Program-made: the position numbers and the translations under genes
Assembly: GCA_002401565.1 (NCBI GenBank)
Contig: NVTL01000057.1
Coordinates: forward strand, 1 to 11,510
DNA from: Rhodospirillaceae bacterium
GTDB taxonomy: Bacteria; Pseudomonadota; Alphaproteobacteria; Rhodospirillales; Magnetovibrionaceae
DNA length: 11,510 nucleotides
Direction of reading: 5' to 3'
Notes under the pieces: model-generated
The model's input: the letters and a program-made list of their open reading frames with translations, nothing else
Told to the model about the DNA's origin: nothing
The model's database searches: none
Shown: one piece after another, positions 2,794-9,530 of the stretch
Layout of the letters: each line of letters starts with the position of its first letter
How positions within the stretch are numbered: the first letter of the stretch is position 1

Positions 2794-3339
2794 TTATTGC
2801 CCGCCGCCAGCTTCTTTGCCGCCCAGTGCACGATTTTTCATCAGATCGATAAACTCTGAAGCAACACGAGAACAGCCGCGCGCTCCGGGGAATCTGGCCA
2901 TCACGCCTTTGCGGATGCCTTTGTCCGGGTCCCTGAGCAAAATATTGACTTCGCTGACCAAAGCCGCGTGCAGGCGACGATTGACGTACTTGGCAATCAT
3001 GACTTTTTGTTTTTCCAAGGCCTTAACGTCAATGTGGCCGTTGCGCAAAAGCTTGGCGGGGTTTTTACTGAAAAACTTAATGATGGCTTCTTTAACATTG
3101 GCTTCGCGCTGGCAAACTTTGGCAAGGATTCCATCGGAAACATTTAATTCCGGCACCGTCAAAATGGGAAATACGGCCCGTGTCATGGGCATCAATTTTC
3201 CGGGACTATAGATCGCAATCATCGTCGGGCTGATGCGGGCATGAGAATCGGTCACGCCCTTTTTTCCTGCGGCCTGAGCTGGATTAACCAACATCAAAGC
3301 CGTTAAAAGTGCGAATAGGGGGAAAATGTGTGTTTTCAT
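2794..3339 (-). CDS. Secreted small protein, unknown function (weak FliL-like look)
   Basis: This 181-residue protein has a clear Sec signal peptide (MKTHIF, hydrophobic run, cleavage likely after AQA at residue 23). The mature part starts AGKK and holds a mixed domain with two cysteines (76 and 156) that could form a disulfide in the periplasm. Residues about 55-135 show a strand, then a helix (VKEAIIKFF), then KLLRNGHIDVKALEKQKVMI, then a helix (VNRRLHAALVSEVNIL). That order faintly resembles the periplasmic domain of FliL-type proteins, but no flagellar genes are nearby, so I do not assign it. The ATG start is supported by GAGGT (3351-3347) seven bases upstream. It lies between the PhzF gene and the SPOR lipoprotein gene on the same strand, with gaps of 83 and 121 bp, and is probably transcribed separately. 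Confidence 0.75.
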   Translation of the reverse strand: MKTHIFPLFALLTALMLVNPAQAAGKKGVTDSHARISPTMIAIYSPGKLMPMTRAVFPILTVPELNVSDGILAKVCQREANVKEAIIKFFSKNPAKLLRNGHIDVKALEKQKVMIAKYVNRRLHAALVSEVNILLRDPDKGIRKGVMARFPGARGCSRVASEFIDLMKNRALGGKEAGGGQ

Positions 3340-3422: not shown

Positions 3423-4220
3423 TTACAGGGAAATTTCGCCCTTCATATACAGAACCGCCCGCCCCGATAGTTTCACCCGGTCGCCGTCCAATTCACACAG
3501 CACTTCACCGCCGCGTGCGGATATCTGTTGAGCTTTAAAGCTATCCTTTTTCAGGCGTCTGGCCCAATACGGTGCCAAGACTGTGTGGGCTGAGCCTGTG
3601 ACCGGGTCTTCGACAATGCCCACTTGCGGGGCGAAAAAACGCGAGACAAAATCAACATCGCCCTCACCTTTGGCCGTGACGATAAACCCAAAGCTTCCCA
3701 TTTGGGCGATCGCTCTGAGATTAGGTTTGAGGTTTCGCACAGCTTCGGGTGAGCCCAACACCGCCAAACGCATGTCATTGCTGGCCACGCAAAAGTCCAA
3801 AGCCGGACCGCCCAGCGCGTGGGTCAGTTCATCGGGATGCGGAGCAGGTTTTAAGGTGCATTTGGGAAAGTCCATGGTCAGCAGGCCGTCTTCACCTTGC
3901 GATACATACAAAACGCCGCTGCGGGTGGTGAAGCTGACCACGTCTTTGGCCCAGTTCAGTTCGTTAAACAGCACCCAAGCCGTCGCCAACGTCGCATGTC
4001 CGCACAGATCGACTTCGGCGGCGGGTGTAAACCAGCGCAGGCCAAAATCAGCCTTGCCTGTTTTGTCCGGCACCACAAACGCCGTTTCCGACAAATTGTT
4101 TTCCGCCGCCAAGCTTTGCATCAAATCATCAGAAAGCCATTCGTCCGTTGGACATACGGCGGCGGGATTGCCGCGAAAAATTTCGGTGGCGAAGGAATCA
4201 ATTTGGTAAAGCGCAATCAT
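3423..4220 (-). CDS. PhzF-like isomerase/epimerase
   Basis: This 265-residue cytosolic protein belongs to the PhzF family (diaminopimelate-epimerase fold, two similar halves). Visible hallmarks are GNPAAVC (17-23), NLSETAF with the catalytic-type Glu exactly at residue 45, DLCGHATLA (the first-half loop) and VEDPVTGSAH in the second half. PhzF itself isomerises trans-2,3-dihydro-3-hydroxyanthranilate in phenazine synthesis, but most family members have unknown substrates, and no other phenazine genes are present here, so only the fold and isomerase/epimerase chemistry are called. It is the last gene of the six-gene cluster, starting 2 bp after the AlaX stop codon, with AAGG seven bases before its ATG. 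Context suggests a small amino-acid-like substrate, but this is inference. Confidence 0.9.
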   Translation of the reverse strand: MIALYQIDSFATEIFRGNPAAVCPTDEWLSDDLMQSLAAENNLSETAFVVPDKTGKADFGLRWFTPAAEVDLCGHATLATAWVLFNELNWAKDVVSFTTRSGVLYVSQGEDGLLTMDFPKCTLKPAPHPDELTHALGGPALDFCVASNDMRLAVLGSPEAVRNLKPNLRAIAQMGSFGFIVTAKGEGDVDFVSRFFAPQVGIVEDPVTGSAHTVLAPYWARRLKKDSFKAQQISARGGEVLCELDGDRVKLSGRAVLYMKGEISL

Positions 4221-4222
4221 GG

Positions 4223-4936
4223 TTAAGCCTTTTCGTCGAACAAGATATTAATACGGCGGTTTTGCTTGCCTTTGTTTTCGATTTTGCCAATCCGCACCGG
4301 ACCGATTTCCCCCGTGGATTTCACATGGGTTCCGCCGCACGGCTGCAGGTCCACGTCCGCGATTTTAATCATGCGAATACGCCCCGATCCTCTGGGCGGT
4401 TGCACCGACATGGTGCGGACCAGATCAGGATTGGCGTCCAGTTCGTCTTCCGTAATCCAGCTGTGGTTTAAGGCATGGTCTTCATTGATGAGTTTGTTGA
4501 GCGCTTCGCCCAAGGCGACCTTGTCCGGTTTTTCGGGGATGTTAAAATCCAGACGGCTTTTGGCTTCACCGACTTGACCGCCGGTGACATCGCCTTCGAC
4601 CAGTGCACAGACCAAATGCATACAGGTGTGCATGCGCATTAATATATGACGGCGGTCCCAGTCTAAATTCACGGTGACTTCGTCGCCTACGCTTGGCATA
4701 TTTTGAACAGAGGCACCTTCTTCGAGAACATGCAAAATTCCGTTTTCGCCTTTGCGCGTATCAACGATGCTAACTTCCCCAGATAAAAACGTCATCAGGC
4801 CGCTGTCGCCCGGCTGTCCGCCACCGGACGGATAAAAAACGGTTTTGTCGAGCACGATGCCTTCCTCTGATACAGCGGTCACAACGGCCGTACAGTTTTT
4901 CAGGTAGCTGTCTTCGCGAAAGAGCTCTTCGGTCAT
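4223..4936 (-). CDS. alaX: Alanyl-tRNA editing protein AlaX
   Basis: This 237-residue protein is a free-standing relative of the AlaRS editing domain, which hydrolyses Ser (and Gly) wrongly attached to tRNA(Ala). The N-terminal part carries the Gly-rich FYPSGGGQPGD (35-44), as in the medium-length AlaX class. The zinc-binding residues are visible: H103 and H107 in HTCMH, then C200 and H204 in CGGTH. Nothing essential appears missing, and its length is normal for AlaX-M. The ATG at 4936 overlaps the stop of the upstream dehydratase gene (ATGA), implying translational coupling. The PhzF gene follows after 2 bp. An aminoacyl-tRNA editing enzyme sharing an operon with a Ser/Thr dehydratase points to control of serine (or threonine) excess; that link is inference. 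Confidence 0.93.
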   Translation of the reverse strand: MTEELFREDSYLKNCTAVVTAVSEEGIVLDKTVFYPSGGGQPGDSGLMTFLSGEVSIVDTRKGENGILHVLEEGASVQNMPSVGDEVTVNLDWDRRHILMRMHTCMHLVCALVEGDVTGGQVGEAKSRLDFNIPEKPDKVALGEALNKLINEDHALNHSWITEDELDANPDLVRTMSVQPPRGSGRIRMIKIADVDLQPCGGTHVKSTGEIGPVRIGKIENKGKQNRRINILFDEKA

Positions 4937-5919
4937 GTGTTTTTTCCAATTCTGTCCAAGACCTTGGCAAAAGTCGCCCGGTCGGCGTTGCCACCGGACA
5001 AAATCAAGCCGATTTTTTTCCCCGCCTGTTTGTCTTTTTCCTGCATCAGGCCCGCCAGCGGTGTGGCGGCGGCGCCTTCGGCTATATTATGGGTATCGGT
5101 GAAATATATGCCCATGGCGTCCATAATTTCATCTTCGCTGACCCGCAAAATACGCGCCGCACCGTCTTTGATGATTTCGAACGCTTCTGGACTTGGCACC
5201 CGGCACGCCACGCCATCGGCCAAGGTATTCGCCGTTGCGGTTTCGACAATTTCACCTTTTTCAAAGGACAAGGCATAGGCCGGCGCATGTTCAGAGACCA
5301 CGCCGATGATTTCGGTTTTTAAATTCAAGGCATCGCGGACCTTAATCAATCCACAAATGCCCGACCCCATGCCGATGGGCACGTACACGGCGTCTAACTT
5401 GCCAACCTGTTCAAACAGTTCCAAGGCATAGGTGCCAACGCCGCGCATCAAGGGCTTTTCAAACGGGCCAATCATGAACAGGTTTCGTTCCTTGGCGAGA
5501 CCTTGGGTGTATTCCAAGGCTTCTTGAAAGTCTTCGCCGTGAACAATCAGTTCCGCGCCTAAGGCTTTGATCGCGGCATTCTTATCGGGACAGTTGCCCT
5601 TTGGCACGATGATGACGGCTTGAAGCCCAAGCTTTTTTGCGGCAAAGGCCAAGCTTTGACCGTGGTTACCCCGCGTTGCGGAAATCACGCCCTTTAAATC
5701 GGGCTGGGTGGCTTTGAGACCCGACAAATAAACCAAGCCGCCACGGACCTTAAACGCTCCGACGGGGGTATGGTTTTCGTGTTTCACCCAAACATCGCAA
5801 CCCGTGCGTTGGCACAATAACGGCCAGTTATAGGTCGGCGTTGCGTTCATATGCCGATAAACAATCGCGCGCGACGCATCCAATTCGGCAATCGTCGCGT
5901 TCAGCATTCCGTCGTCCAT
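4933..5919 (-). CDS. Threonine/serine dehydratase (PLP fold type II)
   Basis: This 328-residue enzyme of the tryptophan-synthase-beta family (fold type II) converts threonine to 2-oxobutyrate and/or serine to pyruvate plus ammonia. The PLP lysine is K57 in GAFKVRG; SATRGNHGQS (80-89) is the substrate loop, GMGSGICG the phosphate-binding loop, and SGGN (308-311) the cofactor-ring contact. There is no C-terminal ACT regulatory domain, so it resembles the short catabolic or racemase/dehydratase type rather than biosynthetic IlvA. Related family members include EutB of ectoine breakdown, serine racemase and hydroxyaspartate dehydratases, so the substrate is uncertain. AAGGAT (5932-5927) lies seven bases before the ATG. 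It sits 20 bp after the EamA gene at 5940-6818 and overlaps alaX by 4 bp. Confidence 0.9.
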   Translation of the reverse strand: MDDGMLNATIAELDASRAIVYRHMNATPTYNWPLLCQRTGCDVWVKHENHTPVGAFKVRGGLVYLSGLKATQPDLKGVISATRGNHGQSLAFAAKKLGLQAVIIVPKGNCPDKNAAIKALGAELIVHGEDFQEALEYTQGLAKERNLFMIGPFEKPLMRGVGTYALELFEQVGKLDAVYVPIGMGSGICGLIKVRDALNLKTEIIGVVSEHAPAYALSFEKGEIVETATANTLADGVACRVPSPEAFEIIKDGAARILRVSEDEIMDAMGIYFTDTHNIAEGAAATPLAGLMQEKDKQAGKKIGLILSGGNADRATFAKVLDRIGKNT

Positions 5920-5939
5920 AATTTACATCCTTAAAAAAA

Positions 5940-6818
5940 TTAGCCTTTGGTGACCAGCGCCACACCGATGACCACAATGCCCATTCCGCCCAACGCCATC
6001 AGGCCCAGGGATTCTCCGAACAAGGCCCACGCAAAAATGGCGGTCACGGGCGGCACCAAATAAAACAAGCTCGCAATCTTAGCCGCCCCGCCGCTGCGGA
6101 TCAGTAAAAATAATAAGGTCATGGCCCCCAACGACAAAACAATAACCAACCAGCCAAGGGCGAAAACGAATTCACCCGTCCAGTGCACGTCACGCGATTC
6201 GAAAAACCACGCCAATAGGCCCATGGGAATCGCGGCCACGGCAAATTGTATGGCTGAGCCGGATCTGAGATCCATCGCGTGTCCATGGCTTTTTTGATAA
6301 AGCGTGCCCACCGTAATGCCCAACAAGGCGATCACCGCATACATAATGCCGTAAATATTTTCCATGTCTAAGCTCAGTTTGTCGCCCAACACCAAAAGGA
6401 CGCCGACCAGCCCCAAGGCAAAACCCAGCCATTGACGTTTTGTGATGGTTTCATCCAAAAACAATCCGGCGCCCAAAGCCGTCAACAAAGGCTGCAAGCC
6501 GACAATGACCGCCGTAATGCCCGCTGGCACGCCCACGGAAATGGCGGCAAATACGCCGCCCAAATAAGCCCCGTGCACCAACAACCCGACCACACTTAAG
6601 GTGGTCATTTCGGCCCAAGTTTTAGGCCAAGGCGCGCGAAAGGCCAAGGCAATCAAAATCAGCAAGACCGTTAAGATCGCAAAACGCAAAAACAAAAACG
6701 TAAAGGGTTCCGCGTACGGCAGGCCTAACTTGGCGCCGATGAACCCGGTGCTCCACAACAACACAAAGGTTGCGGGCATGGCCAGAACCCATGCTGAGGA
6801 ATTATTTTCAGTGGTCAT
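5940..6818 (-). CDS. EamA/DMT-family transporter (second copy)
   Basis: This 292-residue, very hydrophobic inner-membrane protein has about ten predicted transmembrane segments in two similar EamA halves, the usual layout for drug/metabolite transporters. Typical features are LLWSTGFIGAKLGL in the first helix and a Pro/Gly-rich helix before the second half, with APWPK and ITKRQW as cytosolic loops. Known family members export amino acids (RhtA type: threonine, homoserine), cysteine metabolites or other small molecules; the substrate cannot be read from sequence. The site before its ATG is weak (TAAG about seven bases upstream) and the preceding EamA gene ends 20 bp away, so translation may partly depend on coupling. 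Its place directly before the dehydratase gene favours an amino-acid-related substrate, by inference. Confidence 0.9.
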   Translation of the reverse strand: MTTENNSSAWVLAMPATFVLLWSTGFIGAKLGLPYAEPFTFLFLRFAILTVLLILIALAFRAPWPKTWAEMTTLSVVGLLVHGAYLGGVFAAISVGVPAGITAVIVGLQPLLTALGAGLFLDETITKRQWLGFALGLVGVLLVLGDKLSLDMENIYGIMYAVIALLGITVGTLYQKSHGHAMDLRSGSAIQFAVAAIPMGLLAWFFESRDVHWTGEFVFALGWLVIVLSLGAMTLLFLLIRSGGAAKIASLFYLVPPVTAIFAWALFGESLGLMALGGMGIVVIGVALVTKG

Positions 6819-6838
6819 TAAATAATCTTAGGCTGGGC

Positions 6839-7729
6839 CTATCCCTTTCTGGAAAAATAAACGCCTGCAACAATTAAAAAGGCCGAACAGACCAGCATTA
6901 TGGTCAGGCTTTCGCCAAAGACAAGCACAGCCAACGGCAAGCCCACAACCGGCATTAAAAACTGCATCGGCGCAATGCGGGTGATGCCGCCATGCGCCAA
7001 CGCCCAATACCAAGCAATATAAGCCACCAAAGTCGCGCCCAATGATAAATACGCCAAGGCCGCCCAGCCGCTGAGGCTGACCGCCATCACGTCTTGCAAA
7101 TCCCAAACGTACAAAATAAGGGGAATTTGCAAGACGGAAGCGACAAAGACAGCCCAAAACGTCACGGCCAGGGTGCCGATCTGTTTTGCTAAATGGCTGC
7201 CACTGACATACCCAAGGCCCACAAACAGTGCGGACAGCAAACATAAAATATCGCCCATCATGCTGGATGAACCTTGTGCCGCATCTTTGGATGCAACGAT
7301 ATACACCACGCCCGCAAAAGAAATCGCCATGCCCAAAAACCATTTTTTATTCGGCATAAGCCGAACCGCAAGGACTCCGAACAACCCGGTAAAAAAGGGG
7401 TTCATGGAATTGATCAGGGTGCTGTGCAGGGGCGACGTCAGGGAACTGCCGACACTGAACAACAACGTAAAGCCGACAAACCCACACAACGCCACCACCG
7501 CCAAAGACTGCCATTGCTGGCGGCCTTTGGGCCTTGGAAAGCTGGGCCGGAATATAAATGGAGCCACAAACAGTCCGGCCAACAAGGTGCGCATAGCCCC
7601 CGCCGCCAAAGCATCCATATCCAAAACCGCAATCTGCGTGACCGTGGGCATTGCTCCCCAGATGAGGATGGTCAACGAAGCCGCCAAATAAGGCTTCAGC
7701 AGGTCCGGTTTGGAGAGGGTGGCGTCCAT
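6839..7729 (-). CDS. EamA/DMT-family transporter (first copy)
   Basis: This 296-residue protein has about ten predicted transmembrane segments and two EamA halves. The first helix carries LTILIWGAMPTVTQIA, and a charged cytosolic loop (RPSFPRPKGRQQW) follows the second helix. Sequence similarity to the next EamA gene in the cluster is low by eye, so the pair is unlikely to be a recent duplication; the two may transport different compounds or work as a heteromer. The ATG follows the DUF1127 stop after a single base and has no strong ribosome binding site, so it is probably coupled to the DUF1127 gene. Inner-membrane export of an amino acid or related metabolite is the likeliest role; the direction and substrate are unproven. 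Confidence 0.9.
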   Translation of the reverse strand: MDATLSKPDLLKPYLAASLTILIWGAMPTVTQIAVLDMDALAAGAMRTLLAGLFVAPFIFRPSFPRPKGRQQWQSLAVVALCGFVGFTLLFSVGSSLTSPLHSTLINSMNPFFTGLFGVLAVRLMPNKKWFLGMAISFAGVVYIVASKDAAQGSSSMMGDILCLLSALFVGLGYVSGSHLAKQIGTLAVTFWAVFVASVLQIPLILYVWDLQDVMAVSLSGWAALAYLSLGATLVAYIAWYWALAHGGITRIAPMQFLMPVVGLPLAVLVFGESLTIMLVCSAFLIVAGVYFSRKG

Positions 7730-7730
7730 T

Positions 7731-7994
7731 TTAAGCTTGCCAGAACGGTTTTCGAAATTCTTGGCGCGCTTGTTCGCGGGTCAGGCCAATGTCATTCAAC
7801 AGACTGTCGTCCAAGCAAGACAATTGGTGACGACTGATCGAACGATGACGCCACAACACAAATGTTGGAAATGCGCGAACAATCTCTGCCCGAACCAAGT
7901 TTTTGCCATCCAAAACCCAACCCTGCCATGTGAGGGACAAATCAACAGACAAGCCGGGCTTATCAATTGTATCGATACATTTGTGCGTATTCAT
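7731..7994 (-). CDS. DUF1127 (YjiS-like) small protein
   Basis: This 87-residue basic protein has the DUF1127 motif in its C-terminal half (about 44-85): WRHRSISRHQLSCLDDSLLNDIGLT followed by EFRKPFW is close to the family pattern (Trp/Arg-rich stretch, L..LDD..L.DIGL, KPFW end). The first 40 or so residues are unlike the family and of unknown role. At least one alphaproteobacterial DUF1127 protein binds RNA and affects RNA turnover, but no general function is known. AGGAG (8005-8001) lies six bases before the ATG, the best ribosome site in the cluster, and this is the promoter-proximal gene, 78 bp from the divergent MocR gene. The first position suggests a regulatory or coupling role for the operon; this is inference. 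Confidence 0.88.
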   Translation of the reverse strand: MNTHKCIDTIDKPGLSVDLSLTWQGWVLDGKNLVRAEIVRAFPTFVLWRHRSISRHQLSCLDDSLLNDIGLTREQARQEFRKPFWQA

Positions 7995-8055
7995 CGGACT
8001 CTCCTGTCTCTAATTAGGTACAATTGAAGGCTACACTTGACACAATAGGGGGTCA

Positions 8056-8076
8056 ATGCGAATATTGTCACCATGA
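8056..8076 (+). other. Possible six-codon leader ORF coupled to the MocR gene
   Basis: ATG at 8056 opens a six-codon frame (MRILSP) ending in TGA (8074-8076), whose stop overlaps the MocR start as ATGA. An SD-like AGGGGGT (8047-8053) sits just before it, although only 2-3 bases from the ATG. The same SD is 20 bases from the MocR ATG, too far for normal use. It would matter only if transcription starts upstream of about 8045; if it starts at 8073 the frame is not transcribed. Confidence 0.2.
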
Positions 8077-8082
8077 CAATAT
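8062..8082. promoter_or_regulatory. Perfect 9-3-9 palindrome over the MocR start codon
   Basis: ATATTGTCA (8062-8070) and TGACAATAT (8074-8082) are exact inverted copies with a CCA spacer (8071-8073); the start codon ATG (8073-8075) sits at its centre. It overlaps the likely -10 box and transcription start of the same gene, an ideal site for autorepression. As RNA it could also form a small hairpin holding the start codon. Symmetry is seen directly; the binding protein is not known. Confidence 0.65.
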
Positions 8083-9530
8083 ACACACCCAACACCAAAG
8101 ACCGCACAGGCCCCAAATATAAGATCATTGCGGATGCCATCACCGATGACATTCATGACGGCCACCTGGCTGCCGGCGTTAAACTGCCCACCCACCGGGA
8201 CTTGGCCTATCGTTTGGGGGTCACGGTTGGCACCGTCACCCGTGCCTATGCGGAATTGCACCGCCGCCGTGTTGCCGACGCCCGCGTGGGCAGTGGCACC
8301 TATGTGTTAGACATCGCGCGCCAAGCCCAAGTGTTTTCCCCTGTATCAAACATCACCAGCCATGAACCGCTTCATCGCAGCGACAATCGTCCGACTTTGG
8401 AACAGCCCCGTGATGGTAATATTGATCTGTCTATGAACCGTCCGCCACCGGGACCGGAAACCGAAGCGTTGGCCGGAACCTTAAGGCAATTGTCGGGGCG
8501 CAATGACCTGTCGATACTCACCCAATACAATCCCGCCCCCGGCATGCTGCATCACCGCAAAGCCATGGCGCGGTTGTTAAATACAATTGGTTTAGAGTGC
8601 GAAGGCGACGACATTATTTTGACCAGCGGCGCGCAGCACGCCATGGCGGCGTGTGCTTTGGCCTTGTTAAATGCGGGCGATGTTTTGCTGACCGAAAATC
8701 TGACATATCCCGGCATGACGTCATTGGCGTCGCATTTGGGTGTGCGCATGCGCCCGGTGATGATGGATGAATATGGTATGCGGCCCGATGATTTAGAAGC
8801 CGCCGTGCGCGAAACCGGGGCACGGGTGGTGTACATTATTCCCATCATGCAAAACCCCACCACCGCGACCATGAACCAAGAACGCCTGCAAGCCATTGCC
8901 GCCATCGCCAAGCGTCATAACCTGATTATTATGGAAGATGATGTTTATGGGTTTCAGCCGAAAAACAGAAACCCACCCTTGGCTCAATTGATTCCCGACA
9001 ACACTATTTACACCAACGGCTTTGCCAAAAGCATCGCACCGGGGCTGCGCGTGGGGTGCATGAAAGTGCCCAAAACCCTGTTCAGTGCGGTCACTCAGGC
9101 CGTGCAAATTACAGGCTGGATGATTCCGCCGCTGATGGGGGAAATCGCCAGCCAGTGGATTGATTCAGGATTGGCGCAGCACATTATCGACTGGCACCAA
9201 GACGAATGCATCGCCAGAAATGCTCTTGCCGCAGAAATTTTCAAAGGCTTTTCGTTTCAAAGCCAGCCCGAATGCCTGCACATGTGGCTGGACTTGCCCG
9301 ATGGTCATCATGCCGACGATACCCTGCGTAATCTTCGTGATCAGGGCGTCATTTTGGCGGGACCGGAATCGTTCATCACGGCACAGGCCGATGTGCCACG
9401 GTCGTTGCGATTGTGTCTGGGCAGCACGCCAACACGCGAACGCCTGAAAGTCGGGCTGGACCGCATTCACAAAGTCCTGACCGAACAACCCGTCACGGGT
9501 TTTGCGCGCATGGAAAATATGGTTATTTAG
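8073..9530 (+). CDS. MocR-family transcriptional regulator (GntR-aminotransferase fusion)
   Basis: This 485-residue protein combines an N-terminal GntR winged helix (about 15-80: KLPTHRDLAYRLGVTVGTVTRAY is the DNA-reading part, RVGSGTYV the wing) with a C-terminal fold-type-I aminotransferase domain (about 115-475). The PLP residues are kept: TSGAQHA (185-191), N261 in QNPTT, D289 and Y292 in EDDVYG, Schiff-base K319 in FAKSIAPGLRVG, and an Arg-rich carboxylate-binding tail. Such proteins sense PLP or amino-compounds rather than act mainly as enzymes (GabR, PdxR, TauR, EnuR). It is divergent from the six-gene cluster, the usual target layout. The ATG at 8073 is the only standard start before an in-frame TAG at 8046 and lacks a well-placed ribosome site. 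Its 3' end overlaps thiD, convergent, by 8 bp. Effector unknown. Confidence 0.93.
   Translation: MTIYTPNTKDRTGPKYKIIADAITDDIHDGHLAAGVKLPTHRDLAYRLGVTVGTVTRAYAELHRRRVADARVGSGTYVLDIARQAQVFSPVSNITSHEPLHRSDNRPTLEQPRDGNIDLSMNRPPPGPETEALAGTLRQLSGRNDLSILTQYNPAPGMLHHRKAMARLLNTIGLECEGDDIILTSGAQHAMAACALALLNAGDVLLTENLTYPGMTSLASHLGVRMRPVMMDEYGMRPDDLEAAVRETGARVVYIIPIMQNPTTATMNQERLQAIAAIAKRHNLIIMEDDVYGFQPKNRNPPLAQLIPDNTIYTNGFAKSIAPGLRVGCMKVPKTLFSAVTQAVQITGWMIPPLMGEIASQWIDSGLAQHIIDWHQDECIARNALAAEIFKGFSFQSQPECLHMWLDLPDGHHADDTLRNLRDQGVILAGPESFITAQADVPRSLRLCLGSTPTRERLKVGLDRIHKVLTEQPVTGFARMENMVI

Follow-up and report, generated by a model that had tools for sequence, protein, structure and literature searches.

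Regulons of MocR-type transcription factors in which PhzF proteins accompany transporters of the drug/metabolite transporter (DMT) superfamily were reported in 2016 (Suvorova and Rodionov, PMC5320631). Here we describe a stretch of 11,510 nucleotides (hereafter the window; positions 1 to 11,510 of contig NVTL01000057.1, assembly GCA_002401565.1) from a Rhodospirillaceae bacterium of the alphaproteobacterial order Rhodospirillales, in which a MocR gene diverges from six minus-strand genes encoding a DUF1127 small protein, two EamA transporters, a fold-type-II pyridoxal 5'-phosphate (PLP) enzyme of a subfamily named after threonine dehydratase (hereafter the dehydratase), a free-standing alanyl-tRNA editing protein (AlaX) and a PhzF protein. 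DUF1127 is presumably the family that others list as COG5457. Our results indicate that these genes very probably constitute a single MocR-controlled unit, in which two conserved palindromes, putative operators, tie the regulator to the operon, and that its function is probably the detoxification of an amino compound or the response to its overload.

The most similar described systems are PdxQ and unnamed MocR regulons, which likewise combine MocR, a PhzF-like epimerase, DMT or LysE-type transporters and, frequently, COG5457 (PMC5320631); PdxQ regulons differ in that the window's cluster showed no pyridoxamine-phosphate oxidase among the selection of neighbour proteins scanned. The same study places a threonine dehydratase in some MocR regulons and COG5457 in EutR and other regulons, its main text names neither AlaX nor DUF1127 nor tRNA, and its figure or supplement may already list the orthologue group of the window's MocR. 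The ectoine regulators EnuR, EhuR and EutR, as described in PMC8739950 and PMC5320631, provide the closest MocR model, sense through a PLP lysine and have COG5457 in their regulons, and the EutB of that system is, like the window's dehydratase, a fold-II PALP enzyme; unlike them, the window's MocR scores below the model cut-off, the window carries no ectoine gene, and EutE was not found in the assembly. With regard to tRNA editing, the editor CtdA, whose gene adjoins an operon for canavanine breakdown that includes a PLP lyase, protects cells from canavanine (PMC10018355). The likeness lies in a PLP-lyase operon with an adjoining stand-alone editor that guards translation against the same amino acid, but it is one of analogy and not of membership, as CtdA has the B3/B4 editing fold, concerns tRNA Arg and accompanies another lyase. 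The trans-editing AlaX proteins (AlaXp) share with the window's AlaX an editing domain with intact zinc motifs, whereas the latter scores below the AlaXM cut-off and is clustered with probable exporters and a PLP enzyme.

In the open-access literature searched, no paper held both AlaX and MocR, PhzF and MocR occurred together in PMC5320631 alone, a query for 'alanyl-tRNA editing protein' with operon and serine returned none, and the papers mentioning DUF1127 together with GntR, judged from their listing, dealt with other subjects. The initial annotation knew of no description of this gene set as one system, a claim that must be narrowed: MocR regulons that combine PhzF with DMT transporters, or that include COG5457, were on record (PMC5320631). 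In the papers searched, no mention was found of AlaX, of this dehydratase or of the operator layout.

Conservation and linkage of the cluster

The six genes are separated by junctions of 1, 20, 20, -4 and 2 bp, the negative value being a 4-bp overlap between the AlaX and dehydratase genes, and the divergent MocR gene starts 78 bp from the DUF1127 gene, at 8073. Gene set, strand, junctions and gap agree to the base with the initial annotation, as do all of its family labels, each of the seven locus proteins scoring above the Pfam gathering score of its own family (132.7 and 97.8 bits for the two EamA genes); its terms Thr/Ser dehydratase and AlaX are softened here, since the dehydratase passed the PRK06110 model alone and the AlaXM score lies below its cut-off. 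The gene order is not unique to this genome, which would have refuted the reading of the initial annotation: it recurs with drop-outs in relatives, and the linkage is found class-wide. In the family, the block is flanked by ThiD-GlmM on one side and a SPOR-domain gene on the other, and its gene order is kept, with parts dropping out or being swapped.

A free-standing AlaX, distinct from alanyl-tRNA synthetase (AlaRS), was found in 39 of 60 genomes of the order, including the window's own (a 3.03 Mb assembly, 86% complete), and 37 of these loci were fetched, the fragments in G012 and G029 being excluded (G, L and C numbers denote our genomes, loci and contigs). L068, a similar locus in Magnetovibrio blakemorei MV-1, duplicates G007 and was omitted from the linkage, operator and AlaX-locus counts, but not from the 36 cluster-type dehydratases considered below. 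MocR is present in 23 of the 37 loci, and AlaX and dehydratase lie within 200 bp of each other in 17. Among the 14 loci without MocR, four (L031-L034) are cut short by a contig end ahead of the place of MocR, and three of these four genomes carry MocR on another contig. MocR homologues (E <= 1e-60), the weaker of which are possibly paralogues, occur in 34/60 genomes of the order and 66/289 of the class.

Linkage was then counted from the regulator's side in 40 class-wide loci, comprising 34 of the 39 best class-level MocR places and six chosen for an absent or unlinked AlaX, which biases the set against AlaX; five class-level places (G193, G129, G320, G288 and the second of G066) were skipped by hand. 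Controls were 20 paralogues from lower-scoring MocR places, one of which had no match and was dropped, leaving 19. DUF1127 comes first on the divergent side, at no more than 300 bp from MocR, in 20 of the 23 order loci and in 23 of the 40 class-wide loci, as against one of the 19 controls. Within 8 kb on the divergent side, the 40 loci contain DUF1127 (23), PhzF (22), the dehydratase (11), AlaX (7), GNAT (7), EamA (5) and a tartrate-dehydrogenase-like family identified on L090 (4), compared with DUF1127 (1), PALP (3) and LysE (1) in the controls, which hold no PhzF, AlaX, EamA or GNAT. Because of these counts, MocR-DUF1127-PhzF looks like the oldest core, and the pair of dehydratase and AlaX is found more often in the window's order.

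The genes added or substituted in relatives share one theme, though not all fit. A LysE-type exporter stands beside EamA in L052 and, by clustering, also occurs in L061, where EamA was not found; GNAT acetyltransferase genes overlap or adjoin AlaX in some loci; and PLP decarboxylase genes lie between MocR and PhzF in three (L152, L165 and L179). Off-theme additions are a citrate-type transporter and a histidine kinase. In L163 (13657-16649), genes matching NMT1_3 and DctM, the latter of which we take to be a TRAP-type transporter, follow dehydratase-AlaX, possibly an uptake rather than an export variant. An AlaX tree, labelled with contig-end loci as lacking MocR and with L033 as CysK from a cut gene, showed 18 changes of the MocR label, 7 of them forced by well-supported branches, and was not used as proof of repeated recruitment.

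Palindromes and the MocR regulator

Alignment at the MocR start codon was possible for 49 of 63 upstream regions, which display the common pattern GGTCAATG...ATTGTCACC|ATGACAAT, with many columns at 0.8-1.75 bits over a background averaging 0.09 bits at -160 to -61. The encoded protein also constrains the first MocR codons, though not the upstream columns. Furthermore, ATTGT occurs 143 times in the 63 regions, against 18.5 in dinucleotide shuffles. In the window, this region holds operator 1, the sole exact match to ATTGTCANNNTGACAAT in the assembly, where two other places match with one mismatch; one of these (C52:30021) has no convincing target. Operator 2 (Table 1) is the sole match to ATTGTATCGATACAAT at up to two mismatches in the same assembly. 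A copy of ATTGTATCGATACAAT with up to three mismatches lies upstream of MocR in 35 of the 63 loci (mononucleotide-shuffled mean 0.1), and 19 of these 35 copies start 102-108 bp before the MocR start. The exact form ATTGTN6ACAAT has nine forward places in the window's genome and none on the window's contig, because operator 2 has one mismatch.

Promoter-like hexamers were matched on both strands of the intergenic region. Matches like that of MocR number 11 in 5.6 kb, against 4.4 in shuffles. The predicted MocR promoter would imply a transcript start at or next to the ATG, and hence a leaderless or near-leaderless mRNA, and the first hexamer of the predicted operon promoter would fall inside operator 1. 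Taken together, operators and hexamers suggest that the regulator represses itself and shuts down both promoters, perhaps through a loop between sites about 99 bp apart. Attenuation, reported for a Sinorhizobium DUF1127 gene (PMC12218461), would find little room for an upstream open reading frame in the 78-bp gap.

The regulator itself matches PF00392 at residues 16-78 and PF00155 at 117-465, both above the gathering score, and its best NCBIfam model is EhuR, at 440.8 bits against a cut-off of 480. The position of K319 is occupied by lysine in 62 of 63 aligned homologues and by a gap in the other, and K319 is thus the predicted PLP-binding lysine and candidate sensor residue.

Beyond the cluster, ATTGTCANNNTGACAAT at up to one mismatch has 54 forward places in the 60 genomes, compared with 3 for the reversed control, and 21 of the 54 are at MocR genes; for exact sites the share is 16 of 20, with 14 over the start codon and 2 within 20 bp before it. 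Sixteen of the 33 places not at MocR were examined, and 7 precede exporters: a distant EamA gene, with one mismatch, in G000 (where the site starts 89 bp before the gene's start), G002, G009 and G017, a LysE/RhtB-type gene in G043, and MFS genes in G033 and G053. For the distant EamA, 14 homologues were found in 21 genomes; the site has one mismatch in three of the 14 (G000, G002 and G009), is degenerate by eye in four (G001, G003, G007 and G011) and is not visible in seven, namely the family members G005, G006, G008 and G012 and the more distant G021, G022 and G024. G006 has neither a MocR homologue nor a free-standing AlaX. The site before the MFS gene in G033 is an exact palindrome that comes after a second DUF1127-EamA pair (L239:3919-6556). 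The palindromes beside MarR genes in G021 and G024 were judged to be sites of other regulators, and no clear target was seen at the sites in G009 (C36), G045 (C7), G033 (3.63 Mb), G058, G049 (C66) and G023 (C374).

Table 1. Genes and predicted regulatory features of the MocR cluster (window positions)
Feature	Position	Strand	Supporting data
PhzF-family isomerase/epimerase	3423..4220	-	PhzC-PhzF 219.9 bits; best-scoring solved relatives 1s7j, 4dun
AlaX-type editing protein	4223..4936	-	tRNA_SAD 56.6 bits; motifs HTCMH (103-107) and CGGTH (200-204) intact
Fold-type-II PLP enzyme, PRK06110 'threonine dehydratase' subfamily	4933..5919	-	PALP 233.7 bits; K57, unusual R83
EamA/DMT transporter 2, probable exporter	5940..6818	-	EamA Pfam; 71.1 bits with the YedA-like model, short of its cut-off of 270
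EamA/DMT transporter 1, probable exporter	6839..7729	-	EamA Pfam; 72.5 bits with TIGR00950, short of its cut-off of 230.2
Small DUF1127 protein (87 aa), opening the operon, with an operator inside its first codons	7731..7994	-	PF06568 40.6 bits
Operator 2 (putative), ATTGTATCGATACATT, within DUF1127 coding sequence	7966..7981		Conservation-based
Predicted sigma-70 promoter of MocR, TTGACA-18-AATATT	8037..8066	+	10/12 matches, consensus match only
Predicted operon promoter, GTGACA-18-TATTGT	8042..8071	-	9/12 matches, consensus match only
Conserved box GGTCAATG upstream of operator 1	8051..8058		Columns -20 to -16 at 0.95-1.51 bits
Operator 1 (putative), ATTGTCACCATGACAAT, over MocR start codon	8064..8080		Conservation-based
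MocR-type regulator (GntR and aminotransferase-like domains), predicted PLP lysine K319	8073..9530	+	GntR 53 bits, Aminotran_1_2 99.8 bits

At the margins of the cluster, PhzF is followed, again on the minus strand, by a gene for a 181-aa protein without Pfam match (2794-3339) that many loci of the family retain, and the MocR and ThiD genes are convergent with an 8-bp overlap (9523-9530). The window contains no tRNA, and an Rfam scan at gathering scores gave 0 matches.

Enzymes of the cluster and AlaX elsewhere

The dehydratase passes a single model, named 'threonine dehydratase' (PRK06110), with 490.4 bits over a cut-off of 317; it has the PALP fold, K57 at the position of the catalytic lysine and a GNH loop at 84-86. 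Before this loop, the threonine deaminase 1tdj carries Ala and 1v71, which we take to be serine racemase, carries Ser; the window's enzyme has Arg83 there. Of 36 cluster-type homologues, 33 share this arginine (one sequence could not be read, and one genome is counted twice), as opposed to none of 39 other PALP proteins encoded near AlaX or MocR, three of which were unreadable. Because of the conserved Arg83, the name threonine dehydratase is weak evidence of substrate; the residue could bind an acidic side chain.

The AlaX carries the HxxxH and CxxxH zinc motifs, with H103, H107, C200 and H204 invariant in all 19 aligned sequences, and scores 226.6 bits against the AlaXM equivalog NF040865 (cut-off 300). 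AlaRS keeps its own editing motifs in all eight genomes examined, five with and three without AlaX, on which ground a replacement of lost AlaRS editing was rejected; because these motifs are intact, AlaX would be a back-up or second line to AlaRS, or would have another target. PhzF scores 219.9 bits with PF02567 (cut-off 27) and 143.3 with TIGR00654 (cut-off 76.2). Since its family includes a plant amino-acid racemase reported by Strauch and colleagues in 2015, an isomerase of amino compounds is a reasonable role for it by analogy.

Outside the window's order, the best 80 of 594 confirmed AlaX stretches were kept, so that frequencies there are not unbiased. This MocR was in none of the 79 AlaX loci outside the cluster type within that selection. 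The AlaX neighbours examined there were MscS-type (two), rhodanese (two) and one each of trypsin-like, hydrolase, LpxC, MaoC-like and without match. AlaX near a low-scoring PALP, MscS-type or rhodanese gene in other Alphaproteobacteria (L080, L134, L146, L101, L105 and L112) is possibly a separate sulfur-amino-acid context. Two records stand out by their titles. L120, titled Oceanobacillus, a Firmicute, shows an AlaX locus with a low-scoring PALP as in Alphaproteobacteria and is possibly mislabelled, and L094, a metagenome-assembled genome titled Woeseia, has GlmM-ThiD-PRK06110-AlaX as in the window's order, through mis-binning or transfer.

Proposed function and alternatives

Because of the linkage measured with paralogue controls, the conserved operators, the sites before exporters, the shared theme of the added genes, the closeness of the AlaX and dehydratase genes and the canavanine/CtdA precedent, we lean, by a modest preponderance, towards a local MocR regulon that would deal with a harmful or surplus amino compound by export, detoxification and a translation safeguard. 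When no inducer is present, PLP-bound MocR would occupy both palindromes, the one covering the MocR start codon and the one within the DUF1127 gene some 99 bp away, silencing both divergent promoters by self-repression, possibly with a DNA loop. The amino compound would form an external aldimine with the PLP on K319 and thereby release the operon; the two EamA proteins, plus the distant third EamA in the family, would export the compound, the fold-II PLP enzyme would destroy it, PhzF would interconvert an isomer, and AlaX would clear tRNA-Ala of a mischarged residue, either Ser or an analogue resembling Ser/Ala. A unit that senses, exports, degrades and protects had been proposed in the initial annotation, and the conserved MocR-linked set, whose parts fit, bears out that outline; its choice of Ser/Thr as the compound does not hold up as well, given R83, the decarboxylases in three clusters and AlaX in 7 of 40 loci.

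Several observations weigh against such a regulon. Ten of the 40 MocR-selected loci show none of the families counted, and most lack AlaX or the dehydratase, which are present in 7 and 11 of the 40; because of this, the core of MocR, DUF1127 and PhzF may have another job, with AlaX a mere joiner. As for the palindromes, of the 16 non-MocR sites examined, two are beside MarR genes and seven have no clear target, and G005, G008 and G012 carry MocR yet no visible site before the distant EamA, a point against its being a general feature. Export is not the function of every EamA/DMT protein, and R83 and the sub-cut-off AlaXM score argue against a plain transfer of 'threonine dehydratase' and of the known AlaX specificities. 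In addition, 34 of the 79 AlaX loci outside the cluster type (among them L083, whose gene is cut by the contig end) have a same-strand low-scoring PALP gene within 4 kb, and the two such proteins checked are cysteine synthase A. Because of these PALP, MscS-type and rhodanese neighbours, AlaX adjoins cysteine/serine-related enzymes in more than one context, which fits a serine-related proofreading for which MocR is not needed.

Two alternatives are narrower versions of the proposed regulon. A plain serine/threonine overload response, as the initial annotation had it, is possible but doubtful. AlaX family members are known for Ser-tRNA(Ala) (PMC3158927, PMC10018355), an Escherichia coli AlaRS editing mutant is reported to be slowed by serine far more than by glycine (PMC6918089), and the PRK06110 model name points the same way; against this, R83 replaces the Ala/Ser of IlvA and 1v71, the activity of bacterial AlaX was described as unprobed in a 2017 source (PMC5409826), and MocR loci without AlaX or dehydratase are the majority. 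That L-serine itself is the main inducer we likewise hold to be rather unlikely. Somewhat less credit is given to a defence against a toxic natural amino acid, such as a Ser/Ala analogue from a competitor or plant, in which AlaX would edit the analogue off tRNA-Ala, exporters and GNATs would remove or acetylate it, and the PLP enzyme would cleave it. Exporter and GNAT additions, the unusual R83 and the patchy distribution are consistent with it, as is the canavanine/CtdA precedent (PMC10018355), and the intact AlaRS motifs (8/8) should already cover ordinary Ser; on the other side, it is tied to no known toxic amino acid, and the frequent PALP gene near AlaX elsewhere, cysteine synthase in both cases checked, speaks of a housekeeping context. 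Equally tentative is a specific form of the idea, in which a factor sensing an amino acid through PLP would induce a single transcript for exporters, degrading enzyme and tRNA proofreader, all directed at that amino acid, a new Ser/Ala-like one recognised by the Arg83 enzyme; translational quality control would then belong to an inducible detoxification response.

Other explanations assign the genes to different purposes. It is improbable that the cluster is a PdxQ-type regulon for vitamin B6/PLP homeostasis, in which PhzF would act on a compound related to B6: PdxQ regulons contain DMT or LysE/YggA transporters and COG384/PhzF (PMC5320631), but no match to the pyridoxamine-phosphate-oxidase family appeared in the selection of neighbour proteins scanned, and AlaX and the dehydratase do not fit. 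An ectoine-type regulon (EutR/EhuR/EnuR), suggested by the closest MocR model and by COG5457 in most Rhodobacterales EutR regulons (PMC5320631), is largely refuted, being rejected on the EhuR score and on EutE, which was not found in the window's 86% complete assembly and was found in 9 of the 60 genomes (over the model cut-off in four); moreover, the dehydratase is not EutB (179.6 bits against 413). That the genes are merely parked together beside ThiD-GlmM without common function is very improbable: the conservation of the chromosomal spot itself speaks for it, but MocR-DUF1127-PhzF also occurs in five loci (L155, L158, L161, L172 and L174) without ThiD or GlmM within seven genes on either side, the operators are conserved, and the paralogue controls lack the gene set.

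Should the proposed regulon for a harmful or surplus amino compound be correct, tRNA editing would be under joint control with the removal of the offending amino acid by export and degradation, and this would help to explain why bacteria keep a stand-alone AlaX though AlaRS edits. A named regulator, two putative operators and a candidate sensor lysine give a handle on the inducer of a widespread MocR group and on the roles of PhzF and DUF1127.

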